Assembly (NCBI GenBank): GCA_947039955.1
Contig: CAMRAC010000001.1
Coordinates: 1-64,000 of the forward strand
Direction of reading: 5' to 3'
DNA length: 64,000 nucleotides
Source of the DNA: an uncultured Mycoplasma sp.
Lineage (GTDB): Bacteria; Bacillota_I; Bacilli_A; Mycoplasmatales; Metamycoplasmataceae
The notes beneath the pieces were generated by a model. It did not search any database, was not told where the DNA came from, and worked only from the letters and a program-made list of their open reading frames with translations. Position numbers and translations under genes: made by a program. This document shows, piece after piece, positions 6,672 to 47,316 of the stretch (its first letter is position 1; each line of letters opens with the position of its first letter).

Positions 6672-6744
6672 ATTATGAATTATAAACAATTAAAAGTAAA
6701 TGATTGTTGTTTTTAGTGTTTTAATTGATAAAATTATTTTATAT

Positions 6745-8376
6745 ATGGAAAACGAAGAAATAATTAATAAATGAAAAGATGCTTTAATTGAAGATAAACA
6801 AGCGTTAAAACAACTTTCTAAATTAACTAATTTAAGTGATAATAACCCATTTTTCTCAAGATTATTTTTTGATTCAAAAAAGATTGTTGCACGATTGGGT
6901 GTTGGCTATGGAAAATTGAACAAATTAGTAGTTAACCAAATAGCATATTCATTTTCAAGAATACTAAGAAGGCGAAAGAAAGAAAGACAAACAATCGATG
7001 TTTTGGTTTGTAGCGATGGAGCTCCAGAGTTAAAAGAATTTTTGAAAAATATTTCTGATGTTTTTTATGCTCAAAAACAAACAGTTACCGCGTTTAAGTC
7101 TTACTCAGGTTATGACATAAAATTTGTTTGTAGAACTATTAACAAGTTAAAAATAACTGCCGGAATATATATTGAAAGATCTATTTATAATGACAATATT
7201 TTCAGTATTTTTTTCATTGATGGAAATGGTAATTATTTTGGAGAAGAATTTATAGAAGAATTAAAAGAAGATATTTCAAAACATGATATTTTTACAATTA
7301 AGTCACAAACAGCTAAAGTCGACTTTCTTTCAAACCACAGAGTTGTAAATGACTATGTTCAAAAATTATTATCACTATCTAATAGAAAGGGTGATCAAAG
7401 AAGAACAAAAATAGCTATTTCAAACTACAATAATGGAGTAACGGATATTATCCAAAAAATATTAGGTAACATGGATTTCAACTATCTTATTAACAATAAA
7501 ATTAACAAAGGGAATATTCATCAAAGTAAAAATATAAACGATAAGGTTTTTACAAGGTTTTATAGAAGGGATATTTCATTTGCCAAAGAAAATAAATGTG
7601 ATATGTTAATTTGTCCATCTAAAAATGGAACAGAACTAAATCTTTTTGTTTTTAATGGAAGACAAGTTTTTCACTTAGATGCTAACGAGATTTCGCTAAT
7701 GTTTTTGAATTACTTTTTAATAGAAGTAAATATCTCAACAAAGAAACTTCCTAACTCATACATTGGAACTGATATACCGCCAATACAAAGCATTCAAAAT
7801 TTAATTAAAAAATATGATTTAGCATTATCTGTATCAGAAGATATTAAACCCGATGATGATAAGTTTCTATTATTCTATTGAAACCAAAATTCTCAATTTA
7901 TTTTTGGTGAAAATAAAATTGTTGAATTTGGTTTTTATCATTTGATAATTAAATTTTTAGAAATGATTAATTATTATAAAACACAAAGGTTGACAATTCC
8001 TTCAGTAAGAAATGTATTATCTAAAATGTACGGCTCTTATAAAACTCATATTATAGTATTGGATTTTGAAGTTAATAGATTGTATAAATTTATGGAAAAT
8101 ATCAACCATACACATTTCAAAAATAAATTCCCAATAAAAAGCACAGCTTTATTTAATCACTCAAGTGTTTTAAATGAAAATCTAATTGCTAAAATATCAC
8201 TTAAAGATGGAACTGACTTATTCTTTAAATTTAATTACATGAATAAAAAAATATTGGTATTTGTTAGGTTAGAAGAAACAGTTCATAAGTTATGACATAG
8301 AGATGGAATTATTAAAAACTCTTTTATAAAACACTTACACACAGCTATTAAAAAAGATTTAAAACACACATTCTAA
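6745..8376 (+). CDS. Phosphohexomutase (PGM/PMM)-like protein lacking the catalytic motifs (putative pseudoenzyme)
   Basis: Continuous, 543 aa. Collinear with the PGM fold: LGVGYGKLNKLVVNQIAYSFSRIL; IDVLVCSDGAPELKEF; KITAGIYIERSIYNDNIFSIFFIDGNG in place of AGIMITASHNP..YNGYK.Y..DG; CDMLICPSKNGTELNLFVF...DANEISLMFLNYFL in place of AD.VLA.DPDADR......GNEI..LLLDYI; and a YYK-containing region similar to PGM domain 3. Confidence 0.7.
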
Positions 8377-41840: not shown

Positions 41841-41931
41841 AATCATTTAAAAGTTGTTTTATATGATTAATTTGGTATAATTTTAATAAATTTATTGACG
41901 ATTGAACAGTAAATTATTTAAAGGAGCTTTT

Positions 41932-44508
41932 GTGCAAAAAAAGATTAAAAATGTTTTAATAGGTACTTCTGTACTGGGTTTATTAGTTACAACAACAGTA
42001 GTTGCTGCTAACTCAACAAACAATATAAACGAAGTAAATGAATATTCTAAAGAAATCCAAGAAGGTGTTAATAATAAAGTTGTTGTTACTACGGCAGAAA
42101 CAATTTTAACTAAAGAAGTTGCTACAACTCTTGGTTGAGATACTAAAAATGTAATAAGCTTGGAAGATTGAAAAACACAAGCACCTAAAGTTGTAGAAAT
42201 AAACGGTGCTTTTTTAGAAAATACTCTTTTAACAACAATACAAATACCTGCCCAAATTAAAACTATTGGTTTACAAGCTTTTGCAACAAGTATGTTGACA
42301 AATATTTCATTTGAGAAAAATTCACAATTAACAAACATTGGAGAAAAAGCTTTCTTTAACACTGTTCAATTAAGCACAATCGAACTACCTAAATCTTTAT
42401 TATATTTAGGTATAAATAGTTTTGATTCTTCTTCAATTTCTAAACTAACATTTGAAATTGGATCAATGCTAAATACTATTGGTGCTAATTCATTTGCTAC
42501 AACTGTAAATTTAAAAAATATAATTGTTCCTAATTCAGTAAAAGTTATTGATAAATTAGCTTTTAATACAACTTCGTTAGAGACAATTACAATGCCAGCA
42601 AGTTTTCAAGTTAATGGCATGGAATACTTTGGTTTTACGCTAGTTCAATGAGATGCTATTAATTGAGTTTTCCCTTCAACAACAGCAACAATTTTAACTA
42701 AAGAGGTTGCTGCCAAAATAGGATGAGATAAAAAGGCCATAATAACTCTTCAAGATTGAAAAACATACGCACCTAAAGTTGTAGAAATTTATGATGCATT
42801 TCAAAATAATACTGTTTTAACTGAAATTGAAATAATTGATAGTGTATCACTTATTGGTAAAACTGCTTTCGCAGGAACAACTTCATTAACTAAAATTTCA
42901 ATGCACACTTCTTTAAAAACACCTAAACTTGATTATGGTTTTACAGAAAACCAATGAAAAGCAATAGTTTGAACTACTAAATTAGAAGGGGCGATACTTG
43001 ACTCTAAAATGATTATCAAATTAGGTTGAGAAGAAAAGGAAACAATAAATTTAAAAGATTGAGCATTGATTCCAAACGTTGAGGAAATAACTGATGCCTT
43101 TACAAATAATACTATATTAACTTCAATTGAAATTCCAGGTACAGTTGTGGTTCTTGGCAAAAAATCTTTTACAGGAACAACTTCATTAACTAAAATTTCA
43201 ATGAGCGATAGTTTAAAAACTGCAGCAGCTAACTATGGTTTTACATCTAACCAATGAAAAGCAATAGAATGAATACCGGCACCAAAAGTAACTCTATTAA
43301 CTTTAAAACTTGTTAAAGAATTGGGTTGAGATATTAAAACATTAATAACTTTAGAAGATTGAAAAGAACTACCTGATATTCTTGAAATTTCTAACGAAGC
43401 TTTTAGTGGTAATGAAATCTTAACTTCAATTGAAATTCCAAGTACTATAAACGTTATTGGAGAAACTGCTTTTGCAGGAACAACTTCATTGACAAAAATA
43501 ATTATAAATATTAAATTCAAAACTCCAACACCATCTTTTGGTTTTACAGAAGCACAATGAACATCAGTTCTTTGAACTTATGCACCAATAGCTACAACTA
43601 CATTAACTGTTGCTGATTTGGTTTTAATTGGTTGAGAAAATAAATCTTCAATATCTTTTGAAGATTGAAATATGGTTCCTAATGTTGTAGAAATATCTGG
43701 CGCTTTCTTATCACATGAATCTTTAATGTCAATTGAAATTCCAAGTAGAATAAAAATTATTGGTGATTCTTCCTTTGAAAAAACAAGTTCACTAACTATT
43801 GTAACATTTGATAAAAATTCAGAATTAGAAACCATAGGTAACAACGCTTTTGCTGATACAACAATCTTGAAAAAAATTAATATAGAATTTAATTCAAAAT
43901 TAAATTCTATAGGTGATTCTGCTTTTGCTAATACAACTCTAGAAACAATTGAATTACCAAACTCTATAACTACATTAGGTACTGACGTTTTCTCTACAAC
44001 TTCACTAACAAACATCTCTATGGATTATTCACTTTCTAATGAAAGCACAACACCTTTATATGCACTTACTGAAAGTCAATGAAATAATGTTATTTGAAAA
44101 AACATACCTACAACAGGAATGATCAACTCTTTCATTGCCAATCAACTATTAAAAACAAACTTAAGAATTGATTGAGATAAAATTTCAACTTATGAAGGCA
44201 TTAGCGCCAATGCCTTCTCTGGAACATCTATAGTTGCAATCACTATTGAATCAGGGTTTAAATTAGATGACAAAGCTTTTGCTGATACACCAAATTTAAC
44301 AAACATTATTTTAAATCCTACCTATCAGAAAGAAAGTGTAAGTTATGGTTTAACACAAAAACAATGAAGTGAAGTTACATGATTCACTACATCGATGAGT
44401 TACTACAACCAAGTAATAACTATTGTTGGATCAACATCAGCTGTTGTTGCACTAATATCAGTGGCATTAGTTACTTACATTGCTTATCGTAAAAGAAGTA
44501 GATATTAA
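41932..44508 (+). CDS. Large surface protein with BspA-like LRR_5 repeats, N-terminal signal anchor and C-terminal TM
   Basis: Continuous; GTG start preceded by aaaggag. LRR_5 signatures (LTTIEIPSTINVIGETAFAGTTSLTKI), several modules starting LGWD.K..I.LEDWK, C-terminal SAVVALISVALVTYIAYRKRSRY. Confidence 0.85.
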
Positions 44509-44511
44509 AAC

Positions 44512-44545
44512 AAAAAAACTCTTTTTTAATAAAAGAGTTTTTTTT
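44512..44545. terminator. Bidirectional intrinsic terminator between the LRR protein and the convergent aminopeptidase
   Basis: AAAAAAACTCTTTT-TTAAT-AAAAGAGTTTTTTT, perfect 14-bp stem in a convergent intergenic region. Confidence 0.75.
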
Positions 44546-45872
44546 AATAATTTTTAATAAATTCAACAACAGTTTTAATCATTGGTGATTTTGCTTTTTC
44601 TTTGATATCAGCTGTTCCAGCAATATCAATATGAACATATTCTTTATTTTCTACAAATGAGTATAATCATGAAGCAGCAATGTTGCAATCACTATATTCA
44701 ACATTAGAACAAGATAAAGTGTCTGCAAAAGTGTTTTTAGAAAGTGATTCAATGTATCTTTCATCTAATGGCATTCTTCAAATTTTTTCATTAGATTTAC
44801 TCGCAGCTTCTTCCATTAGGTTTCAATTTTTATTTGAAGATGATCAAACACCTGTATAAAGATGACCAAGTGCAGAGACTACTGATCCAGTTAATGTAGA
44901 GATATCCATAATCAAACCAGCTTTAAGTTTAGTAACTGAATAAGTTATCCCGTCAGCAAGAATTAAACGTCCCTCTGCATCAGTGTTTGCTATTTCAACT
45001 GTTCTACCACTCATTGATTTAATAATGCTCTCAGGAAGTGTTGCGTTTGAATCTACAAGATTATCTGTAATAGGCAATACTATTGAAACATTAACTTTTA
45101 ACTTTAATTTATCAACCGCTTCTAAAATATGAGCAGCTATTATAGCTCCTGACATATCATATTTCATTCCTAGCATCCCTTTACCTAATTTTAAATCATA
45201 ACCACCAGTATCAAAAATAATACCTTTACCAACAATGGCTATCTTTTTTCTAGAAAGAGGATTATTATTGTATTCACAAACAACAACTCTAGCACCTTGC
45301 TTTGAACCAGCATTAACTGATAAAACTAGATTCATTCCTATTTTTTCTATATCAGACTTATTTAAAATGGTTGTTTTTACTTTTCTTGAATTTGAAAATA
45401 TTTTTTCTATCTCACTAGTTAAAAAATCAGTTGTACATAAATTAGCTGGCATATTCTGAAAATATCTTGCTGAGTTCATTTGTGTTGCTAACAATATAGT
45501 TTCATGAAAATCATCAATACTAAAAGCATTACTAATAATTTTATGTTTATAAGTTGTTTTTTCATCAGTTGTTTTTTTAGTAAATTTTTTTCCATTAACT
45601 AAAATATCTTGTTCAATAAATAAATTAACAACATCTTTTTCTTCTATTTTTTTAGTAACAAATGTACTAGCATCGATTTCATAACTTCTTCCAGCATTTG
45701 TAAAAAAATCTTCCATCGCTTTAGCAAGTTTTTCAAGAGTTAATTCTGTTTTCTCACCAATTGAAATAGTTGCTTCCATTTTTGAAGCATCATCTAAAAC
45801 AAGGTTCTTTGTTTTTTGAAATTTGGCACTACAATAAAATGCAGTATTTGTTCTATTCTTAATTATTTCCAT
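44544..45872 (-). CDS. Leucyl aminopeptidase (M17), copy 1
   Basis: Continuous. IVGKGIIFDTGGYDLKLGKGMLGMKYDMSGA, VEIANTDAEGRLILADGITYS. Confidence 0.93.
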
Positions 45873-45879
45873 AATCTAA

Positions 45880-47253
45880 TTACTCTTTAGCATTTAGAGC
45901 CATTTGAACTAATGTCTTAACCATAATTCCTGTTGGTTCGTCAGCCTTACCTGCAGAACCTGCGATATCTAAATGAATGTATTCCTTTTCTTCTGTAAAT
46001 TCTTTTAAGAACATAGCCGCAGAACATGATCCACCATGACCTGTTAAGTCAGTGTTTTTATAATCAGCCAAAATTGATTTTTTAATATTAACTAAGAAAT
46101 CATTGTGGAAAGGCATTCTTCAAACTAATTCTCCTTGACCTTTTGAAGCTTCTAATAAATCACTTCATGCTTTGTCAGTTGTTGCTCATGCTCCTGTATA
46201 TGTTGAACCAAGTGAGACAACAATTGCTCCTGTTAAAGTTGCAATATCAATAATTCTTGTAGGATTGAATTTTTTAATTGCATAAGTTATAGCATCAGCT
46301 AAAATTAATCTTCCTTCAGCATCAGTATTATTTACTTCAACAGTTTTTCCGTTCATTGAAGTATAAATTGAATCAGGTAATGAAGCAGTAGAAGATACTC
46401 TATTATCTGTTAACGGTAAAACCATTGACACATTAGTCTTTGGAGCTAATTCGATAATTGTATTCATGGCTGCGAAACAAATAGCAGCTCCTGACATATC
46501 ATATTTCATACCTTGAATAGCATTAGAAGGTTTTAAATTATAACCACCTGTATCAAAAGTAATTCCTTTTCCTATATAAACGGTTTTTTCTTTAGAAGAA
46601 GGATTTCCTTTATATTCAACAGTTACTAATTGAGCTTCATAAGCTGAACCTGCATTTACAGATAAAAATAATCCCATTTTCTCTGCTTCAATTTCTTTCT
46701 TGTTAAGAATCTTAAGATCAATCTTTGAGCCATGAACTTTTAAAACATCATTCATTTCTTTCGCTAATCATTCAGAGTTACAGATATTAGGAGGCGTTGC
46801 TTGTAGTCTTCTAGCAAGATTTACAGACTTAGCTAAAGATAATGCTTCTGTTGCCACTTTAGTTAACGAAGCAGTATTAGAAAAAATAGTTACTGAGAAT
46901 TCTTTTGATTTCTTAGCTGTTTTAGCAGAATACAAACCTTGACCCAATAAGTATTCTTGTTGGTCGATAAACACTCTTACAACCATTTCTTCTGTTACTA
47001 ATTTAGAAACGAAAGACTTCGCATTTACTTCAAAGTCCCTGTTTCCCAAAGTAATTACTTTTTTCATAGCTGACTTTAAAGAATCATTATTAAATTTACC
47101 TTCTTCACCTAAGTAGATGTAAGTAGTTTTTTTGTTAGGAAACTCTGTTATTGAAAGTTTTTCAGTTAACATATTTTCTTCTTGTATTTTTGAATTTTGG
47201 AAGAAACCAATAACTTTAAACGCCTTTAAATTTTCTTTATTTACTAGTTTCAT
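45880..47253 (-). CDS. Leucyl aminopeptidase (M17), copy 2
   Basis: Continuous. YIGKGITFDTGGYNLKPSNAIQGMKYDMSGA, VEVNNTDAEGRLILADAITYA. Confidence 0.94.
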
Positions 47254-47316
47254 ATTTGCCTTATTTCTGTTTTTATTTTTTAATTTATTTTTACTAATTA
47301 TATAAGTTATCAAAAA

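Follow-up and report, generated by a model that had tools for sequence, protein, structure and literature searches.

The window, the whole 64,000-nucleotide stretch of DNA analysed here, carries on its forward strand a stand-alone gene for a protein predicted to have the alpha-D-phosphohexomutase fold. With genetic code 4, in which TGA encodes tryptophan, the gene is an uninterrupted reading frame of 543 codons at 6745–8373 (8376 with the stop codon). It contains three TGA tryptophan codons, and translation table 11 breaks it into pieces. If translation began at an ATG at 6700, the protein would be 15 residues longer. The orthologues L130–L134 have no start codon at the position matching 6700, and their frames open at the one matching 6745; L129 is the one orthologue that also has the upstream ATG. 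The gene and its former active-site loops, the latter positioned by profile–profile alignment, HMM alignment and MAFFT (33 stand-alone proteins aligned jointly with 19 intact ones), are as follows.

6745–8376 (+): putative stand-alone phosphohexomutase-fold pseudoenzyme, 543 residues plus stop, code 4 (Pfam, NCBIfam, AlphaFold/Foldseek, profile–profile alignment)
7174–7191 (+): former catalytic phosphoserine loop, TASHNP replaced by ERSIYN (residues 144–149); Ser146 retained, His, Asn and Pro gone (alignments)
7618–7635 (+): former Mg2+ loop, DPDADR replaced by SKNGTE (residues 292–297); three Asp ligands and Arg gone (alignments)
7879–7899 (+): former sugar-binding loop, EES region replaced by WNQNSQF (residues 379–385); W379 and N380 do not vary within the genus (alignments)
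7924–7929 (+): former RDKD (general acid/base) segment; E394-F395 invariant in the genus (alignments)
8227–8247 (+): former phosphate-binding loop, RPSGTEP replaced by KFNYMNK (residues 495–501); K495 and N497 do not vary within the genus (alignments)

In the window's genus, the convergent neighbour of this gene encodes an MHO_4530-family protein (NF045955; 8391–9917 on the reverse strand in the window), which is widespread in the taxonomic family and is present also in genomes without the pseudoenzyme. Across genera the neighbours (lepA/MHO_4530, gyrA, rpsD) differ and are mostly housekeeping genes. They indicate no pathway, and we rejected the idea of reading function from gene context. Elsewhere in the window we observed two tandem leucyl-aminopeptidase-like genes (44544–47313, reverse strand) and a gene for a large, likely surface protein that combines BspA-like leucine-rich repeats with a membrane segment at its C terminus (41902–44508, forward strand).

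The first-pass annotation had described the reading frame as collinear with the alpha-D-phosphohexomutases, and sequence profiles and structure prediction agreed on this point. The window protein matched the first phosphohexomutase domain of Pfam (PF02878, E 8e-5) and nearly the whole of the NCBIfam model NF045968, "MAG5620 family putative phospho-sugar mutase" (E 1.6e-27). Profile–profile comparison with 13 intact mycoplasma mutases aligned 509 columns (E 6e-32). An AlphaFold model (pLDDT 79, pTM 0.79) displayed the four-domain fold of the superfamily over the full length of the protein. When this model was compared with the PDB by Foldseek, all 50 matches listed belonged to the phosphohexomutase superfamily (best E 2.8e-19), with alignments of 500–614 columns; TM-scores were 0.53–0.63 by query and reached 0.71 by target. 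Because the model was built from 11 sequences, the window protein plus ten orthologues from the same genus, with no intact mutase among them, this evidence for the fold is largely independent. Searching the PDB with the window sequence alone returned nothing significant (two chance hits, E about 0.5), and a ten-sequence profile found no match there; likeness to PDB entries was found by fold comparison only.

We compared 13 key residues of the intact enzymes: the loop Arg, the Ser, three Asp, an Arg, two Glu, a Lys and the Arg-Ser-Gly-Thr of the phosphate loop. Every complete intact mutase had all 13, and the window protein retained one, Ser146. The 33 stand-alone relatives in the tree retained 0–3; among 20 additional stand-alone loci, which include the three identical copies of G118, the count was 0–4. 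None of the TASHNP, DxDxDR, Glu-Glu-Ser and RxSGT loops was found in the window protein, and none of the orthologues read had intact loops. It had been claimed from the window alone that every active-site loop was replaced. This held for the metal loop, which has neither Asp nor Arg, and for the sugar loop (GEESGG to WNQNSQ), in which both Glu are absent; the counterpart of the Glu-Glu pair is N380-Q381 or W379-N380, according to which aligner is used. The phosphoserine loop is altered as claimed, but its register was one residue off, and the corrected alignment keeps a serine at the position of the nucleophile. The phosphate loop has likewise changed and lost its SGT grip, although the segment aligned to it is KFNYMNK rather than NYMNKK; within the genus, its Arg has become an invariant Lys and its Ser an invariant Asn. 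Ten of the 11 genus members have Ser at position 146 and L007 has Asn; outside the genus neither Ser146 nor E394 is kept.

The window's own genome has three phosphohexomutase-like genes. One is the separate intact mutase that the first-pass annotation had proposed looking for: it is cut by the end of contig C6, and it has intact TASHNP and DPDADR loops and residues matching the enzyme at all six of the key positions that the truncated copy includes. An intact mutase is also present in all 11 congeners examined. The third gene, next to dnaA on contig C2 (L065:4775–7678, forward strand), encodes a 968-residue protein in which a degenerate phosphohexomutase is joined to an MprF-type LPG_synthase_TM region. 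In a phylogenetic tree, all 33 stand-alone degenerate proteins fell on one side of a single branch (support 100/99), where the window protein grouped with NF045968 members that exceed the curated cut-off of 115 bits, apart from the intact and the membrane-fused mutases. The window protein scores 96.5 bits, below that cut-off; despite this, we assign it to the NF045968 (MAG5620) line. Membrane-fused degenerate proteins formed a second group, the unity of which was not rejected (p-AU 0.163), and long branches leave the deeper order of the tree unsure. We also noted three loci (L014, L063 and L109, in G020, G067 and G017) at which an intact-loop phosphohexomutase is fused to the same membrane region, possibly giving membrane-tethered mutases, and a single-contig genome (G118, C1) with three identical stand-alone copies (L151, L152 and L177, at 16.6, 32.1 and 723 kb).

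Ordinary purifying selection acts on the gene, as on the housekeeping genes beside it. Between the orthologues of G003 and G005 (dS 0.63), dN/dS was 0.087, compared with 0.108 for both dnaE and the MHO_4530 gene, 0.062 for pcrA and 0.009 for lepA; distances among orthologues beyond this pair were partly saturated. The selection check suggested by the first-pass annotation thus gave a dN/dS of about 0.1 among close orthologues, and full-length frames are retained at 27–80% identity. Both purifying selection and the absence of the catalytic residues from all orthologues, the two properties by which we recognized a pseudoenzyme, were found. In the genus, conservation was higher at the 30 positions of the former active site than elsewhere (0.756 versus 0.621), a value reached in 1 of 492 circular shifts, and the residues D91, G295, W379, N380, E394, F395, K495 and N497, which line the former cleft, were invariant. 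Across all 33 stand-alone members, the former active site was not significantly more conserved (56 of 478 shifts were as high). Because the excess is significant in the genus only, the rebuilt cleft is fixed within the genus and not across the whole line, and the function shared by the line may therefore lie elsewhere on the surface.

To survey the family, we used 124 genomes of the window's family that were at least 90% complete, of which 99 had NF045968 matches and 47 had an intact mutase. Leaving out five genomes in which the match was of the intact or membrane-fused type or was unresolved gave 94 stand-alone carriers, about three quarters of the sample; in roughly half of the carriers the tree or the residues confirmed the stand-alone type, and the others were assigned to it by score and frame. 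An intact mutase accompanied the stand-alone gene in 37 carriers and was missing from about 57 (54 when damaged copies are omitted). The stand-alone line spans at least six genera. Every carrier found in genus g13 was without an intact mutase. Loss or ongoing loss of the stand-alone gene was seen in some lineages: in genus g6, and as broken copies in G043 (C1:519152–520294, with one TAG and two TAA in frame) and in G165 (C1:603657–604958, with 20 TAA). By contrast, the membrane-fused paralogue tracks the intact enzyme: in genus g3, 24 genomes had both, one had only the first, one only the second and 31 had neither (Fisher's p 8e-14, which ignores kinship and therefore exaggerates the association). 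Second matches, where fetched and read, were fusions of 965–1056 residues in 18 of 19 cases. These co-occurrence counts indicate that the stand-alone line is independent of the active enzyme and that the fused line is not.

We consider it likely that the window protein is a paralogue of the alpha-D-phosphohexomutases that diverged anciently, lost catalysis and was kept as a cytosolic binding or scaffold protein with a rebuilt cleft. Sequences and model together support the fold, the loss of the catalytic set, the single line of descent, the purifying selection and the persistence in genomes with no detectable active mutase. A retained pseudoenzyme with a new binding or structural role had been suggested from the window alone, and this suggestion is well supported by the same evidence, with inactivity read from the residues and the new role one that we infer. 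The four-domain, cleft-bearing scaffold would have been retained while metal binding and phosphoryl transfer were lost, leaving a soluble binding or scaffold protein. What the eight genus-fixed residues of the cleft bind is most likely a partner protein or a different ligand, probably an anionic one. Closure of domain IV is the ordinary motion of the phosphohexomutase fold, and here it would couple binding to a signal or to assembly. More speculatively, the line may be a mycoplasma-specific family in which the whole cleft was replaced and reused, to sense or bind a different ligand or for new chemistry, and which has outlived its parent enzyme where sugar-phosphate mutation was dropped; this is possible, but we hold it only tentatively.

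A new chemistry is the alternative to a binding role to which we give most weight, and we still think it unlikely. Here the cleft would be a new active site, built from residues such as S146, E394, K495 and N380, for a reaction other than mutation. Such a site is consistent with the near-constancy of Ser146 in the genus and with the new invariant set lining the former loops; the loss of Ser146 and E394 outside the genus, however, means that no catalytic set is common to the whole line. The database name implies an active phosphohexomutase, here one with unusual catalytic residues; we regard this as improbable. The fold, the name and the serine at the catalytic position fit such an enzyme, but the metal loop has lost its three Asp and its Arg, the sugar loop both Glu and the phosphate loop its SGT grip; judged by its residues, the window protein is very unlikely to carry out mutase chemistry.

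Equally improbable is that the window protein regulates the cell's own active mutase, or supports it structurally, within a hetero-oligomer. The window's genome and all of the congeners examined do contain an intact mutase with which it could pair, but because about 57 of the 94 carriers show no catalytic mutase, such a partnership cannot be the conserved job of the line and we rejected it as such; it is the membrane-fused paralogue that accompanies the intact enzyme. Least credible of all is a decaying, functionless copy on its way out: broken copies exist in G043 and G165, but for the window's genus the selection test and the full-length frames refute decay. The binding or scaffold protein thus remains our preferred reading. 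Near-minimal genomes rarely retain dead enzymes, and a catalytically emptied metabolic enzyme that persists past its active counterpart would be a clean case of an enzyme fold put to a new or non-enzymatic use.

Our search of a literature library for MAG5620 and for degenerate phosphohexomutases of mycoplasmas found no paper. Among described families, NF045968 is the closest: its over-cut-off members (L035, L036, L012 and others) share the stand-alone line of the tree and are without the same catalytic residues. Judged by these residues, which do not support the implied activity, the name "mutase" is misleading for the MAG5620 family, and "putative phospho-sugar mutase" can make metabolic models of mycoplasmas assume a mutase step that is absent. 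The membrane-fused proteins, such as L065:4775–7678, resemble the window protein in having a degenerate domain (0–4 of 13 residues in those read), and differ in their C-terminal LPG_synthase_TM region, their separate tree group and their co-occurrence with the active mutase. M. bovis MBOVPG45_0728 is probably of this fused kind, given its length (2973 nt, PMC4045577). A precedent for a structural role of the fold in a mycoplasma is MPN066 of Mycoplasma pneumoniae, a phosphomannomutase by annotation that localizes to the attachment organelle (PMC4669176). Vertebrate PGM5 (aciculin), a further precedent for a binding or scaffold role and one of the Foldseek matches, has the phosphohexomutase fold, no phosphoglucomutase activity and a structural role in muscle (PMC7761743). 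The active site of PGM5 is mostly intact, and PGM5 binds glucose-1-phosphate (PMC7761743), whereas in the window protein the loops themselves have been replaced.
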